Below are positions 51,499 through 64,000 of a DNA stretch of 64,000 nucleotides, one piece after another (the stretch's first letter is position 1; each line of letters begins with the position of its first letter). The stretch lies in contig SAUG01000106.1 of NCBI GenBank assembly GCA_011316305.1, positions 124,001 through 188,000 on the forward strand, given 5' to 3'. Origin of the DNA: Rusavskia elegans. Its lineage: Eukaryota; Ascomycota; Lecanoromycetes; Teloschistales; Teloschistaceae. The position numbers were made by a program, and so were the translations under genes. The notes below the pieces were generated by a model. That model saw nothing but the letters and a program-made list of their open reading frames with translations. It made no database searches and was not told where the DNA came from.

Positions 51499-52891
51499 AC
51501 CATCTAACCACAATGAACAGCGGAACGAGATTGGACAAAAGATCATTAGGCTTGAGTAGAATGAGAAAGCTTCTGATTGATGCCTTGTGCTCAAGTAGCC
51601 TTGGTGCACTGTAGGTGGATTTTTCCAAATACCTTTCATTGCATTGAGGTCCGTGAGCGCACCGACCTACGATCGCCAATTAGATAAAAGCGCCCTAAGC
51701 AAATTCGAGTCGCATACGACTGTGACCCTTGCCGACATACTCGACACCCAGTGCAGACAGATCTGATGCATGGTTGCTTTCTCTTCAGACGCTGGGAGTG
51801 AAGGCTCTTGCTATATCCAATATTGTATCCTTCCGCCGGTAGAATCTTGCTGCATTCCTGCCATCAACAGGCGATCGGTGCATTGAGATGGGATACTTGC
51901 TCTAGCTGATGGGAAGATCTTGTATCAATCATTCGCTGCGGTTGAGTCGGGCGAAAATTGACAGACGGAGTGGTAAAACATGGACGTCTTGATTGCAGAT
52001 GGCATGGGAGCCAATCGCACGGAGTATAATATGGCAGCCACAGAATTGCTCCCTTATCTTACCGTCGATTCCTCCGCCTTACCACTCGAAATCATACATG
52101 TTATCCCTGTCGTGATCATTAGACTGTGATGGACTGAGCCAACGTCGTTAAATCTTCCAAGGGTTGAAGAGAGAAGATGTTGTACTAACGCTATTCTTTG
52201 CTCTCATTAGACGATGATAGGACTGCACAGGGATTTACTTCTCGGAACCTATGACAGTCATTCACAGATGTGCTTGCGTCAAGGCCGATCATCGATAGCT
52301 AGGTGTGGCTGATCATACCTTCAGGGTATTTGCTGTGAGCTGAATGCAATAGACGACGAGGGACAGCTGTGATGTATGATGTAGGATCTTGATAACCGTC
52401 CCCCTCCCCCGCTCGATGCCCCTTTGAGTCATGAAAAATTGAATTTGAGAACTTGAATAAATTGTACATGACCACCCGCGAGGTTGCGCCAGCGAGGTAA
52501 CGGAGGCAGTGGCTCCCAGTACTTGCCGCGCGGTGGTATCGGCTCTGTGGATTAGGTACCTTGGCCCGCGTCTATGACTCAAAGGGGGCACGGGCTATCA
52601 CTAAGACCCTACGATTTGTTGCCAAGACCTAGGGCTAGGGCATGACGTGACCCCATGTCTCATCCCTCTTTCCACCTCGACACGTTCTTCGATAGAACAA
52701 CTATAGCATCGCGTAAACCCTTTGCCTAGGCGGGTCCTCTAGGTCAAAGCTCAAGGTGACCCACATTATATCATGAATCTCCTCTGGGTAACCCGTACAT
52801 GATAGCACCGATTCAACGTGAAAAGTCGGCTGACTCCTTGCCATCATAATAGACTTCATCCATAGCCTTACACCGATTGGATGATGCATCT
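51499..52891. other. 1.4-kb intergenic region
   Basis: It contains the upstream regions of the minus-strand secreted-protein gene and the plus-strand 736-aa gene, which are divergent. No supportable gene or repeat seen. Confidence 0.4.
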
Positions 52892-55102
52892 ATGCAATGC
52901 AGCTGCAGCCCCGCATTTCTGGTTATTCGGGACCGCTGCTGCCTAAAGAAGGGCGATGATGGAACAAACGATTTCCAGAGACGATTCCACTTGGTCGTTC
53001 ATCATCTCTCAACACTCACCATAGGTCAACGTCACCAGCTCTTCGTGGTGGCCAAAATTCGGAACCGCTATCGCACCCTCGCCCTTGCGCACCGTCAATG
53101 GCTGTACGAAATGGGGCCGGTAAAAAGATGTCTGCGTCTCATTCAGATCTTTCAGGCTGTTCCAAATCAAATCCCGATCAAACAGGAGCTTCGAGCAGCT
53201 TATGAGAAAGACGACGAATTCTGGGCCACGGACTTTACTCAACCCTTTCCGTTCATCGCAACCTGTCTGCTCGTCGGATCATCCTTCGAGCCCGAGACTG
53301 GCTACCAGCACCGAGTCCATTCGTTGCCCTTCAATGTAACGCTCCACCAGATCGATAACAATGACGGCATCACTATCATCGATATTTCAGACACCAAGGA
53401 CATCAGATATTGTTTCGCTTTTCTCGACGATTGGCCTCAAAAGCCCTTGAAGCCACTATCTGCGAATGGGTACTTGGTACGATATGAAACTAGCCCTGGC
53501 AGGGACGAGGACGAAGACGAGGACGAACATTCCGAAGTTGAAGAAGAAGATGATGAAGATGAAGAAGAGGCGACTGACCAGTCCAAAACTGATGACTATA
53601 CCACTTTGATTCCGCCCGATTGTCTATCTTTGCCAAGATATCGGCTTGAAAAGTACAGAATGATAACGAAAGACACCTTGCGTAACTGGTTGAATCCAAC
53701 CGTGGGCAATGACAAGAGCTTGGATCACGATGAACAGCAAGCGCAACTGGTGGGGACAAAGCAATCGCTCCGGGAACAGACGATGGAGCAGCTCGTCGAC
53801 AGGCTGCTGAGAGACCCAGACCACGATCCCGATGCCATAGCCGAAGCTCGACATTTGCCGGACTTTGCCTTGAAGCTGAGAAACAAGATCTCCTCCCTCG
53901 CAGCGGCGAACGAGCTACCCTCATCACCTGCCTTGGTTCGTTGTCTTGGAATCGCTTTCGATGGCCAGACCGAGGTTGATCTCAGCTCGATGACACATAT
54001 CACATCCGGCCTTCTCGTCGAGGCCATTTCGAGTCTCCTGGAGAGCGGCATAGTCAAATCACTCGACCTGTCACATTTGCGCCAGCTTTCGGAGAAGGAC
54101 TTGGAAGGCATTGTCCATACTAAGTCCAGTCTGGAGACTTTGTATGTTTTTCAGATGCCACAAATATCGCTCCAGTGCGTCGGCTCACTCTGGGCCAAGA
54201 ACACCACCTTCAAAGAGATCTACCATACCGATCTTTTTGGACGTCCGTTGAATCTAACTCATCGCTACTCGAACCTAGTCGTTGGGCTTCAATCACCCTG
54301 TATCACCGACACCAGGAATCCAATCAAGAATATTTTCTTCGCGCGTGTGCTATCGAAAATGTATGGCGGAGAGCCAAACCTACGCAAACACGATGGTATC
54401 ACTGTAGATTGGCGACGCTCGGAGCTAGGACTCAGCAACAGCGATGAACTGAACCACATGTTCTTCTCGGTGTTTCCTATCAACGACATGCTCCTGACAC
54501 CAACCAAAATCGTCAACGGCCTCGTAAACTTCCTTCGCTGTGCTTCCACCGACAGCGATTCGTGCGCCCTTGGAGAATCTTATCTTGCAGGCTATGCCAT
54601 GGTCAAATCGTTTGCATCAGCATCGCCGTACGAGACAAATGACTTGACCACAATTGGACCCTTTCCAAACCTGCTGTACAACGCGTGCTCTACCGCAGCT
54701 AGAACCTTGTCAACGTTATGGCCCGTCCCATTTCCGCATCTTTGCCCAGGAGAGCTCTCGATCGTCATCATAAACGAACAATCTCCTTCAAGGAGGATGG
54801 AAAATTTGGCCCCAAGCAAATTCAGGCTGGCGGTGGTAAGCCCCAAGACGGCAGACAAGGGCGAAGGGTATCGAATACAAAGCCTAGAAGCGTACCTGGA
54901 AGGTTTACTGGAACGCTCCTCGGGAATACAGAACGAGGAAGTCGCAACGCTCTTGCAATACTGGAAGCAGTGGATGAGCTTTGTAGGATCTTGTGAGGCC
55001 GCAGAGATAGACGAGTTACTACCTACGGCAGAGAAAAACATGGAGAAGGTAAAACAAGGTCGTGTGTGGGAAATAATATCCGACGCGTGGGATCGAGACT
55101 GA
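52892..55102 (+). CDS. Unrecognised fungal protein with acidic tract, 736 aa
   Basis: Uninterrupted frame; the first in-frame ATG is at 52,892, though the frame is open slightly upstream and a 5' intron cannot be ruled out. Residues ~35-95 form a basic, helical segment with a His-Gln-Leu-Phe-Val-Val-Ala-Lys core, followed by a globular part. Residues ~203-230 are almost all Asp and Glu. The part around 350-440 contains Leu-rich segments (Val-Lys-Ser-Leu-Asp-Leu-Ser, Leu-Glu-Thr-Leu-Tyr-Val) spaced like leucine-rich repeats. The C-terminal ~300 residues have no recognisable motif. No signal peptide or membrane helix. Probably intracellular; function unknown. This is one of the longest clean frames in the window and surely a real gene. 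Confidence 0.85.
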   Translation: MQCSCSPAFLVIRDRCCLKKGDDGTNDFQRRFHLVVHHLSTLTIGQRHQLFVVAKIRNRYRTLALAHRQWLYEMGPVKRCLRLIQIFQAVPNQIPIKQELRAAYEKDDEFWATDFTQPFPFIATCLLVGSSFEPETGYQHRVHSLPFNVTLHQIDNNDGITIIDISDTKDIRYCFAFLDDWPQKPLKPLSANGYLVRYETSPGRDEDEDEDEHSEVEEEDDEDEEEATDQSKTDDYTTLIPPDCLSLPRYRLEKYRMITKDTLRNWLNPTVGNDKSLDHDEQQAQLVGTKQSLREQTMEQLVDRLLRDPDHDPDAIAEARHLPDFALKLRNKISSLAAANELPSSPALVRCLGIAFDGQTEVDLSSMTHITSGLLVEAISSLLESGIVKSLDLSHLRQLSEKDLEGIVHTKSSLETLYVFQMPQISLQCVGSLWAKNTTFKEIYHTDLFGRPLNLTHRYSNLVVGLQSPCITDTRNPIKNIFFARVLSKMYGGEPNLRKHDGITVDWRRSELGLSNSDELNHMFFSVFPINDMLLTPTKIVNGLVNFLRCASTDSDSCALGESYLAGYAMVKSFASASPYETNDLTTIGPFPNLLYNACSTAARTLSTLWPVPFPHLCPGELSIVIINEQSPSRRMENLAPSKFRLAVVSPKTADKGEGYRIQSLEAYLEGLLERSSGIQNEEVATLLQYWKQWMSFVGSCEAAEIDELLPTAEKNMEKVKQGRVWEIISDAWDRD

Positions 55103-59583: not shown

Positions 59584-61659
59584 ATGGGAAAGAAGAGGTC
59601 GACACGAACATCAGCGCTGTCTTCGGCTCAAAAGATACAGAAGCGCTTGGTCGAAAATGTAACGTTGCTGTGGGCAATGTGCGAGATTCCAGACTTGCCA
59701 AAGGAAAATAAACTACACGGGAGCTATGATGAGCGCCGACAGCTCTCTTTGGACCGAGAACAGCAGCTCGTAGACAATTTCGCATTCATATCAGCCTCGA
59801 CCGATAATATGCTCCGGGTAATGGCTGTCTGCATTGAAGAAGATCCCGATAAGAATGGGATGACCATCCGCCTGGCGTCAAATACCGGAGATCTCTCGCC
59901 TATCACGCAAGGCTTTGAAGACATTGCACGAACTCTGGAACAAGCATCATCGAAGTGTAGGGCTCACTACTTAAGGGACACATACCTGGGCTAATGCTCA
60001 CTTCCAGCAGACTCCAGATCCGATATTCGGCGAGAGTTGTTCCGCCAGATCGTCATCCTGGATGAGCCTCGCATATTATCTCGCTTGAGGTCGAGACATG
60101 CCGCGAGAAGCCTGAAGACGAAAGGGAGGGCCGAGCTCTTACCATTGCTGAGCAAAACCATCCATGACAAGTCTATTGATAGCCGTGGCGAGCTGATGAA
60201 GACCAGTCTTACCGGCCTTCAATCTAATTCCAAGCAGCTGTCCAAGAGATTTTCTGAGTTTGAGGCCGCTCGGGAGGGTGATCGTACAAAGAATGGCTCA
60301 CGCGATGTGCTCCTCGACTTATTGATTCAAATTAGCGAGTTCGACGTCGGCAGTCTGGAGAGAGCCCTCGGAACATCTCGTTTAATCGACCCCAGTCTGA
60401 GAGCTTTCCTTCCGCTTGCGTTAAGCAAAATCGGTCGCTACTACCATATCGCGTGCGACCTAGTCGATGCCGCCCGAAGTCCCCAATACACACTCTTTCG
60501 CCGTATCTCAGTCCAAGCGATAGACAAGCCTCACTTAGACATGACTTTCATCGCAGATCACTCTGCAGGATTCGAAGAAGTATTTCGGAGGGTCACTTGC
60601 GCATCACATCAATACCGTCACACTGATTTTGATCCACAAACTGTCTGCGCTGTGCGAACGAAGTTTCAGAACCGTATAGCCGATTGTGCTACAGCATGGA
60701 AGGTTCATGCTGAAGTCCAGATATTGTTGTTTTACGACAAGACGCCGCAGATGTTTCGTCCGCGGATTATCGGGTCGAGTAAGAGCGCGTGCTATCTGTG
60801 CAATCTGTTCATCCAAAGCCACGGACAATTCCAGGTCTCTCGTTCACATGGAAGGCTATACGACCGGTGGATACTCCCAGCGTGGCCCCTCGAGCAAGTG
60901 TCCGCCAATCGACATTTTCGGTCCGCGGTCGACAAGCTCAATGGCGCCTTAGAAGCCAAGATTATATCTGTCTTGAACGATAAACAACTTCCGTTTGCGC
61001 ACCCCGCCGAGAGCGTTTTGATTTTTCGACAGCCGTGGTCACCGAATTCTACGCTCTCCATTATCTCCAATCGTGAAACCAAAGCTATACATGAGACTAC
61101 AGACCCTGTTTCCGTAGGTCCATCTAGAGATTCAACAGAGCCTCAACCCACTACCTCGTCCTGCTCCTTTCCGAATCCAAAAACATCCATCGACCACGAC
61201 GATATTGCGACAACCCTCGCCGCCAACGAATTGCAAGTACAGAGGCCACCACCACAACCAGTTACCACCTTCCGTTACCTTTGTCGAGGTGATTCAACCT
61301 CTTGTAAGCTTACGCAAAAGTCCGATGTCTTCGTCGTCGAAACAGATGCTGGGACAATCTATGCGTCATGGGACGTCCCTTCCGAAGAAGATGCTGAATC
61401 TAAATATCTCCCTTCTGGCCGTGCCTGCTGGATCCAGGTTACATCGCTCGCTAAGGATGCCCAGACAACCCAAAGTCATGGAACCTTCGAGGGTGTTGAC
61501 GTGCACTTACTGACTCCCGGTCATGACTACATTTTCGAGAATGGATCCGCGTTTAGCTCAAAGGAGCTTACTGTTCAGCTTAAAGGAAATACACTACTCG
61601 TCAAGTACAGCTTCGAGGATCCTGAGAACCACCAAATCTCGAAGACTACAAGTGGGTGA
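59584..61659 (+). CDS. OTT_1508-like deaminase family protein, two exons, 674 aa
   Basis: Exon 1 59,584-59,956, intron 59,957-60,007 (51 nt, GTAGGG..CCAG with a GCTAATG branch-like site), exon 2 60,008-61,659; 2,025 nt in phase. The ATG follows GTC at 59,584. Residues ~60-330 are a helical domain with no recognised function. The deaminase core is at ~350-420: His-Ala-Glu-Val-Gln (H358, E360) and Cys-Tyr-Leu-Cys (C386, C389), which would bind zinc and activate water, followed by Ser-His-Gly-Arg-Leu-Tyr-Asp-Arg-Trp. These motifs and the surrounding Ser-Ser-Lys-Ser-Ala match the fungal OTT_1508-like (Pfam OTT_1508_deam) members of the cytidine-deaminase superfamily. The ~130-residue C-terminal region looks like a beta-rich domain after a Ser/Thr/Pro linker. 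Substrate unknown; nucleic-acid or nucleotide deamination is inferred from the superfamily only. All four catalytic/zinc residues are present. Confidence 0.82.
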
Positions 61660-61871: not shown

Positions 61872-62000
61872 CTAGAACTGCAAAGAGGAGTACCAGCAAT
61901 AATCGCACTTCGCATGCATGCAACCAAAGCAGTCGTTGGCATGAGTGGTATTTCGACGTCTGCAGTGGCAGCATTTCCAGTAATGGCGATGTGGAGGCAT
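61872..62000 (-). CDS. Cys-rich zinc-ribbon-like microprotein, copy 1 (42 aa)
   Basis: ATG at 62,000 (AAGATGCC), stop at 61,872. The product has an aromatic Tyr-Trp-Lys lead-in, then Cys10, Cys11, Cys13, Cys24, Cys27, Cys32 and Cys35, forming three C-x2-C pairs (10/13, 24/27, 32/35), with His at 12, 20 and 29 and a Trp-Tyr-Ser-Ser-Leu-Gln tail. This spacing suits one or two zinc ions in a small ribbon. It aligns with the frame at 62,491-62,619 through the cysteines and the tail; in the aligned Cys, Tyr, Gly and Ser codons the two differ mainly at silent third bases, a sign of selection on the protein. No signal peptide. Function unknown. Confidence 0.68.
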   Translation of the reverse strand: MPPHRHYWKCCHCRRRNTTHANDCFGCMHAKCDYCWYSSLQF

Positions 62001-62177
62001 CTTGGTTGGGTGGAAAGATTGTTCAATATCGGTTGGGTGAGTCGACGTGTAGGACGAAGTTTGAAGTGATCGGGAGCAGTGAACGGAACGATCGTGGCGT
62101 TTGCGATCACTGCAGGGTGGTCGTGGTTGGATGCGAACTGGCTGCTGGATCTTGTGAAATCAGGGACCCTTGCCAGT

Positions 62178-62186
62178 ATTATATAT
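62178..62186 (-). promoter_or_regulatory. TATA-like box upstream of microprotein copy 1
   Basis: The minus strand reads CCAATATATAATA, about 180 bp before the ATG at 62,000, with a CCAAT directly in front of it. The position matches those of copies 2 and 3. Confidence 0.4.
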
Positions 62187-62490
62187 TGGCTGAAGAGTGC
62201 GTCATCATCTCTACATTCTGGATGGCGAGTCATACTACCGTCTGGAAGCGTCACAATTGCCAATTATATGCAGTCGCAAGCGCAAACCTGGATTCTCTTG
62301 CCTATTGCAATTTACCAAGTAACCCCATCTCTTCCTTCCACAGACAACAAAAGCCTTCAACGCCCTCTCAACCCTTAATAACCTCCATCGCTTCCGCTCA
62401 ACCAGTCACCCCATCCAACCATTCAAGGCCCCCCAACCAGACCATCCACACCATCCACTCAACCTCCACTCCATCATCCATTCCACCCAG

Positions 62491-62619
62491 CTACTGCAAA
62501 GAAGAATACCAGCAATACTCACACTTCTCGTATCCACACCCAAAGCATTTATCGCGCCAGGTAGGGTTTGGACGGTATCCGCAATGGCAGCATTTCCAGT
62601 AGTGGGGAGCTGCCGTCAT
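62491..62619 (-). CDS. Cys-rich zinc-ribbon-like microprotein, copy 2 (42 aa)
   Basis: ATG at 62,619 (AACATGAC), stop at 62,491. It has Cys10, Cys11, Cys13, Cys25, Cys28, Cys33 and Cys36, the same three C-x2-C pairs as copy 1 with one more residue in the middle loop, a shared Tyr-Trp-Lys-Cys-Cys-His-Cys start and a Cys-x-Tyr-Cys-Trp-Tyr-Ser-Ser-Leu-Gln end. The middle loop differs almost entirely (Pro-Asn-Pro-Thr-Trp here). The gene lies 490 bp upstream of copy 1 on the same strand. Its leader (62,620-62,850, minus) is C-rich and nearly free of G. No signal peptide. Function unknown. Confidence 0.7.
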   Translation of the reverse strand: MTAAPHYWKCCHCGYRPNPTWRDKCFGCGYEKCEYCWYSSLQ

Positions 62620-62857
62620 GTTTGTCTCGGAAAGAGGAAGTCGGGGTCGTTTGTGTGTACTGTTGGGGGTGGTGGGTCTTGGTATATTGGTGGGTTTGGG
62701 TGATGGCGTTGCTTGGATAGGGATTGGCCGGAGTAGTGGATGATTGTAGATAGGGAGTTGGGGGAGGTTTTTGGGTGGTTGGTCACACTTGAGATATTGG
62801 GTGCCCGCTTGAGATTGAATATAGATTGCGTGGTCAAAATCTGTTGAACATGGAACC

Positions 62858-62866
62858 TATATATAC
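62858..62866 (-). promoter_or_regulatory. TATA-like box upstream of microprotein copy 2
   Basis: The minus strand reads GAGTATATATAGG about 240 bp before the ATG at 62,619, a good match to a fungal TATA box. The C-rich leader follows it. Confidence 0.45.
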
Positions 62867-63307
62867 TCGCGTTGCGTGGGTAATGCTCTATTCGATCTTC
62901 CTGACGTCGAGTCACCATGACATGAGAGTGTGTCAGAATCTTGGACACATTTTGCACGTTGAGACGTATGTGTCTCACCATCGATGCTTTGGTGCTGATC
63001 AAGTAACAGAGCTGATACGCCCTTTGGTCATGCTTGAGAAATATCTGTACTATGTCGCCGCACTTGATTTATAGCTGTTACCGCAAGGCAACACTCCGAT
63101 AGACATGGTACAATATTTTTCTATCGATAACATACAACTCCCAACATCCACCAAACCCACTCCCCAACCCTCAAAAACAACTCCACACCTCCTCGACTCC
63201 AAAAAACTCTACCCCGCCCAACACCCCACAAAACCCCCCTCGAATCCCCAACACCGCAAACCATCAACAAACACCAGTCCCCCGTCGCCTCTCACACGCC
63301 ACCCCAA
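62867..63307. other. Spacer between microprotein copies 2 and 3
   Basis: About 440 bp. The part at 63,125-63,300 is strongly C-rich on the plus strand (G-rich on the transcribed minus strand, downstream of copy 3). The plus-strand open frame there is a Pro/Thr-rich reading of this bias and not taken as a gene. Confidence 0.45.
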
Positions 63308-63442
63308 TCACGGCGAACTCTCTCGAAACCGACAACTCCTGCACTTCCCATGGCCACAAACCTGGCAATAATAGAACCACTCTGAATTATTCGTCGTGAA
63401 ACACCTGCAACACACCCAGTAGAGGATCCGACGTTTCGTCAT
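63308..63442 (-). CDS. Cys-rich zinc-ribbon-like microprotein, copy 3 (44 aa)
   Basis: ATG at 63,442, stop at 63,308. It has Cys11, Cys12, Cys14, Cys26, Cys29, Cys34 and Cys37, again three C-x2-C pairs with the same spacing, a Tyr-Trp-Val lead-in, an Asn-Asn in the loop and a Cys-Gly-His-Gly-Lys-Cys turn as in RanBP2-type and ribbon zinc fingers. Outside the cysteines and the Tyr-Trp it differs from copies 1 and 2 almost everywhere, including a basic tail (Arg-Phe-Arg-Glu). It is about 690 bp upstream of copy 2 on the same strand. No signal peptide. Function unknown. Confidence 0.66.
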   Translation of the reverse strand: MTKRRILYWVCCRCFTTNNSEWFYYCQVCGHGKCRSCRFRESSP

Positions 63443-63642: not shown

Positions 63643-63650
63643 ATTTATAT
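63643..63650 (-). promoter_or_regulatory. TATA-like box upstream of microprotein copy 3
   Basis: The minus strand reads CCATATAAATCA about 205 bp before the ATG at 63,442. As for copy 2, a C-rich, G-poor leader (63,445-63,600, minus) follows. Confidence 0.4.
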
Positions 63651-64000
63651 GGGTTTTTTTTTCGTGGTGAAATGCCATGCATAGGTAGTATATGAGTCAA
63701 ATACATTTATTCACTGTCGATCTCGACTCCTGCAGCGTATAGAGGTCTGTAGAGAAGATGGTAGTGATAGAATAAGAGCCTACGCTAGAAAGTTGATTGC
63801 AAATTCCGAGAGAGAGCAGAGGCTTTCGATTAGATTGTTCTTACCTCTGGGTACTGTTTATCTCGTCGAACATCTATTTTGCAACTTGGAGTTAAGGGAT
63901 ATTAATATACGCGGTTCAGTAACCCCTTTTTCAAAGCCTCGAATGGCATCAAATCATGCTTATCAAAGCAGATGACATACAGGTGGTATAAGGATAGGAT
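63651..64000. other. Right end of the window
   Basis: About 350 bp upstream of the third microprotein gene. No gene, repeat or further copy of the microprotein was seen. Confidence 0.4.

Follow-up and report, generated by a model that had tools for sequence, protein, structure and literature searches.

What are the three very short, cysteine-rich open reading frames that lie close together near the right-hand end of this Rusavskia elegans sequence: complete genes, parts of longer genes or chance frames, and what kind of protein would they encode? The window, meaning the whole 64-kb stretch analysed, is C11:124001-188000 of a genome of 44.16 Mb in 217 contigs, which was itself searched. Measured in 2-kb steps, GC content is 16-28% over the first 32 kb of the window and 42-51% over the remainder, where the three frames are found.

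61872..62000, minus strand: copy 1 (c1), 42 aa, seven Cys, constrained against copy 2
62491..62619, minus strand: copy 2 (c2), 42 aa, seven Cys, first loop one residue longer
63308..63442, minus strand: copy 3 (c3), 44 aa with seven Cys; c4 on contig C53 matches it at E 0.001

Small cysteine-rich frames at four loci

The three frames lie where the original prediction had placed them, each with its own ATG and stop codon. Its three C-x2-C pairs are also present, but its count of six cysteines and its uniform spacing are not: each protein carries one extra Cys besides the three pairs, seven in all, and the residues after the first pair number 10 in c1 and 11 in c2 and c3. All three follow the order W-x-C-C-x-C, 10 or 11 residues, C-x2-C, four residues, C-x2-C, and the spacing of c1 reads W-x-C-x2-C-x3-N-x6-C-x2-C-x4-C-x2-C. 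A 'Cys-Gly-His turn' that had been ascribed to the copies occurs in c3 only, with C-M-H in c1 and C-G-Y in c2. The alignment of c1-c3 has 12 invariant columns, and identity is 63% between c1 and c2 and 33% between c1 and c3. In the six frames of the 64-kb window, the pattern C-x2-C-x(8-14)-C-x2-C-x(3-6)-C-x2-C has three matches, which are c1-c3 themselves; this three-pair pattern has no match in 60 simulated 32-kb sequences (first-order Markov, modelled on the GC-normal half of the window).

Protein searches of the same genome and a reading of the C155 locus bring the small ORFs with the motif (~40-47 aa) to eight at four loci, c1-c3 on C11 and five more, these family counts being lower bounds because the search tool scores only the best candidates in each search. 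The proposal of a zinc-ribbon-type family is upheld: its small ORFs are under coding constraint, and their number grows from three to eight. The further members, together with two sets of longer relatives, are as follows.

Contig C53: c4, 45 aa, found by protein search
Contig C13: c5, 42 aa, eight Cys, found by protein search
Contig C155, L040:1055-2123, about 153.3-154.4 kb, plus strand: trio c9, c7, c8, spanning ~1.1 kb
Contig C155: c7, 40 aa from the near ATG, found by protein search
Contig C155: c8, 41 aa, found by protein search
Contig C155: c9, 47 aa, second knuckle split by an insertion, found by reading the locus
Contig C35, L032:3056-7212 and L010:1492-1802, about 93-98.8 kb, minus strand: cluster of five places with the ribbon pattern, among them c6, found by protein search
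Contig C187, L027:692-1698, plus strand: three units, of which one open frame holds two and the following frame the third

Same-strand trios occur at two of the four loci (C11 and C155), and in c7 the second pair begins with Ser instead of Cys. The places on C35, all on one strand within about 6 kb, have longer tails that differ between places, and some of these ribbon genes probably contain introns.

The genome holds two independent paralogue pairs, c1/c2 and c4/c5, and in neither does blastn give a substantial alignment outside the ORF (inside it, 74.8% over 119 columns for c1/c2 and 77.4% over 84 for c4/c5). The flanking DNA yields single matches of 15 nt and 14 nt (E 0.13 and 0.45); where neighbouring copies match at 100%, one and the same piece of DNA was compared with itself. 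Codon positions 1/2/3 differ 8/6/17 times in the 36 codons of c1/c2 and 6/3/14 times in the 30 codons of c4/c5. The silent differences reported earlier between c1 and c2 are borne out at 9 of 25 identical residues, including two of the seven Cys codons. By NG86, dN is 0.23 and dS 3.0 for c1/c2, and dN is 0.16 for c4/c5 with dS undefined by saturation; LWL85 gave a dN of 0.21 and a dS of 0.77 for c1/c2 and no values for c4/c5, and YN00 gave 0.19 and 0.95 for c4/c5 and no values for c1/c2. The three ratios obtainable over the ORFs of the two pairs, 0.08-0.27, are rough because so few codons are compared.

When the same number of differences was placed at random 20,000 times, the observed amino-acid identity was reached in no draw for c1/c2 and at a rate of 0.0001 for c4/c5. 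All seven Cys are kept in both pairs, and random placements keep them in 0.18% (c1/c2) and 0.32% (c4/c5) of draws. Stop codons were avoided in 22% and 23% of the placements, so an open frame alone says little. The frames c1, c2 and c3 are almost certainly genes, and the differences within both pairs fit purifying selection. The loops do vary freely between copies, as had been noted, and constraint on the frame goes with this variation; the label 'diversifying' given to the family was therefore dropped.

The GC-normal stretch is flanked by AT-rich blocks (about 14-30% GC), at window positions 1-32700 and at L034 (C11 about 189.0-193.4 kb), which look like RIP-type AT-isochores. No more than about 1.5 kb separates the c1-c3 trio from the block on the right. 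Convergent with copy 1, a 540-codon frame on the plus strand (60037-61659) carries an OTT_1508-like deaminase domain (PF14441, E 4.7e-21), and a 741-codon open frame from TTG occupies 52877-55102, also on the plus strand.

Domain class and longer relatives

The RanBP2-type finger has the consensus W-x-C-x(2-4)-C-x3-N-x6-C-x2-C and holds one zinc with four Cys between two hairpins; such fingers bind Ran, ubiquitin or single-stranded RNA. The literal spacing is exact in c1, and c2, c3, c4, c5 and c8 have x4 instead of x3. With the Pfam model PF00641, c2 scores 15.9 bits against a cut-off of 27 and c1 and c3 score nothing; at E up to 1, two of 11 family members match (best E 0.0078), neither over the cut-off. 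Searches of Pfam and NCBIfam put none of the small ORFs over any cut-off, and in the window Rfam finds nothing that reaches a gathering score. In the genome as a whole, PF00641 has 12 matches, three of them over the cut-off (in frames of 331, 331 and 472 codons) and none of them a small ORF, which makes this search unusable for counting the microprotein family.

In a PDB profile search with c1-c3, the best match was a 3566-residue chain with RanBP2-type fingers, aligned over six stretches (E 1.6e-13). With 11 members in the profile (c9, the C35 place L032:5190 and the other units of L027 being left out), that chain drops to E 0.11, and the lead passes to RBM10 (2e-4), archaeal eL40 and Nup153, with RNF31 next and rubredoxins as weak matches. 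Most matches to this profile stop at positions 28-30, leaving the third Cys pair without a counterpart; weak matches running further are Nup153 2ebq (5-37), synaptotagmin-like 4 (8-39) and MAT1 (9-35). Two AlphaFold runs on c1-c3 gave low-confidence models with two strands only (pLDDT 68 and 59), and Foldseek with VIA-align found no match for the first (pLDDT 68). Each small protein is most likely one RanBP2-like zinc ribbon followed by a C-terminal x-H-x2-C-x2-C extension, in which c2 has Tyr for His, and the products would be expected to bind zinc.

Searches of the protein collection gave one candidate for c1-c3, with no match at E up to 10, and 29 candidates for six family members, with no relative among them. 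Because a match must have 5-residue words in common with the query, this search can overlook divergent relatives; a close relative that had been annotated might have come up, since the collection holds many named lichen-fungus proteins. We take minimum-length cut-offs in gene calling to be a likely reason for the absence of an annotated relative, and a size below such cut-offs, as first proposed, is plausible. The titles and abstract openings searched contain no description of the microprotein family.

Of 1089 candidates for the frame at L027, 476 are relatives at E up to 0.01. The best named matches of this frame are from Xanthoria sp. (92% identity), Calogaya (84%) and Flavoplaca (80%), all of them Teloschistaceae, and the named proteins among the matches listed are fungal. 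None of the 120 relatives listed of the 476 has a precomputed Pfam domain; 11 of these 120 have one strict-spacing unit, 65 two, 40 three and four proteins four. Among the distinct units of the same 120 proteins, a His stands two residues after the fourth Cys in 268/268, and the residue two positions before the first Cys is Arg in 219/268 and Trp in 44/268. Judged by their sequences, L027 and its relatives are an unnamed fungal domain family. An hhalign comparison of the 11 family members with 12 hand-chosen L027-type units gave a probability of 96.6% (E 5.5e-10), with both profiles rich in Cys, which favours any such match. By this comparison the family carries the unit C-x2-C-x(9-11)-C-x2-C-x-H-x2-C-x2-C, c2 again having Tyr in place of His.

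Upstream layout and proposed working

Upstream of c1-c5, the following sites were located, with distances counted from the ATG.

62227..62232, minus strand: TGACTC upstream of c1, at -232
62180..62185, minus strand: TATAWA upstream of c1, at -185
62909..62914, minus strand: TGACTC upstream of c2, at -295
62858..62865, minus strand: TATATATA (TATA) upstream of c2, at -246/-244
63694..63699, minus strand: TGACTC (as TGACTCA) upstream of c3, at -257
63644..63649, minus strand: TATAAA upstream of c3, at -207
c4, sense strand: TGACTC at -228, TATAWA at -198
c5, sense strand: TGACTC at -250, TATAWA at -215 or -200

TATAWA stands 30-50 nt downstream of TGACTC in all five, and the full TGACTCA is present in three of them. 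No 6-mer other than TGACTC is common to all five upstream stretches of 350 nt; among 3000 random sets of five, 4.4% also have a common 6-mer, so this feature alone is weak. The joint layout of TGACTC, 20-60 nt and TATAWA, which was picked after looking at the sequences, occurs in 5/5 of c1-c5 versus 0/5330 overlapping background stretches from the GC-normal half of the window. Over 213,388 strand-bases (this half plus ten loci, some overlapping, with one family place counted twice), one non-family place, L029:5584, was found beside five family places. The full layout is absent upstream of c6, c7, c8, c9 and the other C35 genes, with the start of one of the latter, d2, taken a base or two off. 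Upstream of c7 and of c9, GAGTCA stands exactly 270 nt before the ATG (-270) and TATAWA is missing; c8 has TATAAA only, with neither TGACTC nor GAGTCA. PMC3199737 describes TGA(C/G)TCA as the cross-pathway element of Aspergillus nidulans cpcA. The TGACTC upstream of c1-c5 may be the core of such a Gcn4/CpcA-type element and would then place these five genes under bZIP control.

A reading of the ORFs as exons of longer spliced genes, and not as complete microproteins, is improbable. On C35, c6 has no near ATG and reads well by eye as a second exon behind a predicted 62-nt intron (GTACGT...TAG), an in-frame upstream ATG of c7 would give 109 aa, the C35 and C187 relatives are longer than the small ORFs, and c2 and c3 each contain one GTRNGT. 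In c1-c5, however, the ATG directly precedes the domain and is the first in-frame one after the preceding stop, a further stop follows soon after the domain, and the A+C-rich leaders are free of ATG back to the TATA box (0 in 882 nt, from TATA+30 to the start). Moreover, the similarity within c1/c2 and within c4/c5 starts and stops within the ORF, and c1, c4 and c5 contain no strict donor site. Chance ORFs, which shortness and the lack of a relative in the protein collection might suggest, deserve next to no credence in view of the frame-only conservation in two independent pairs and of a Cys pattern that never appeared in the Markov control.

With seven Cys in 42-44 residues, small size, an intracellular location and a bZIP-like promoter site, the proteins could also be metallothionein-like metal buffers induced by metal or oxidative stress, a reading about as doubtful as that of spliced exons. 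Metallothioneins are usually aromatic-poor and rich in C-x-C, whereas an invariant Trp with further aromatics, conserved Asn and His, and C-x2-C pairs at fixed spacing point to a folded ribbon and set the small proteins apart from that class; the ribbon unit is found inside longer proteins too. An effector-like role, raised in the original prediction, would make them secreted peptides, effector-like or antimicrobial, that serve the lichen symbiosis; small size, richness in Cys, tandem order and a place beside an AT-rich block speak for it. By inspection, however, they lack an N-terminal hydrophobic stretch, in all eight small ORFs the part before the domain Trp is 5-8 residues long (c7 counted from its near ATG), and this Trp is residue 8 or 9 in c1-c3, leaving no room for the signal peptide of a secreted Cys-rich effector; the C-x2-C pairs, too, would fit metal binding over disulphides. 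This role is very unlikely, and the suggestion was given up.

The preferred reading, with a probability of roughly 45%, is that the small ORFs are intact genes of a dispersed fungal family, that they encode intracellular single zinc ribbons, with TGACTC-TATA co-induction of c1-c5, and that these act as protein- or RNA-binding modules which may compete with longer proteins. A signal, perhaps amino-acid limitation, would act via a bZIP factor on TGACTC, and c1-c3 and the two single genes elsewhere (c4, c5) would probably be induced together through it. The TATA promoter would yield a short mRNA, and the product, a free zinc ribbon remaining inside the cell, would bind protein or RNA, most likely as a stand-alone binding module. 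The microproteins may then compete with longer same-domain proteins of the genome, possibly for their partner. We infer this binding or competition role; the loop residues differ among copies, so no partner is readable from the sequence. It is a rather unlikely extension that co-regulated single-domain zinc-ribbon microproteins, on a starvation-type bZIP switch, compete with longer ribbon proteins in lichen-forming fungi as a regulatory layer missed by catalogues.

Comparison with known systems

The microprotein family is more extensive than the first three ORFs, and it is no wholly new kind of domain. Genes of 40-47 codons with their own constraint pattern can form a multi-locus fungal family for which the collection searched gave no relative, and these are linked with an unnamed zinc-ribbon unit that hundreds of predicted proteins contain (those with names in the list are fungal). 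The promoter layout common to c1-c5 offers a concrete, cheap test of what induces the microproteins.

With the RanBP2-type finger (PF00641; RBM10, Nup153, RNF31, RanBP2), the small ORFs share W-x-C-x2-C, an Asn six residues before the third Cys, and C-x2-C. They differ from it in the extra Cys within the first pair, in a first loop longer by one residue in c2-c5 and c8, and in a fixed third C-x2-C pair, before which most PDB matches had already ended; their RanBP2-like domain, moreover, stands alone as a protein of 40-47 aa. The zinc ribbon of ribosomal eL40, the second class of PDB match, resembles them over the first two Cys pairs, but eL40 is part of the ribosome and its match ends at profile position 30, without the third pair.

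The L027-like proteins share with the small ORFs the whole arrangement of C-x2-C, 9-11 residues and C-x2-C-x-H-x2-C-x2-C. Most of the 120 listed carry two to four units within a few hundred residues, whereas the small ORFs have one. The units of L027-like proteins usually have Arg before the first Cys, where the small ORFs have Trp, and C-H-x-C with a conserved Phe in place of C-C-x-C. L027-like proteins were found across many fungi, unlike the small ORFs, which have no relative in the protein collection. Finally, microproteins that compete with longer same-domain proteins are known from plants and animals; like the small ORFs, they present as a tiny separate protein one domain that also occurs in longer proteins of the same genome. 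Those of plants and animals are known competitors, whereas the small ORFs described here are known from sequence alone.
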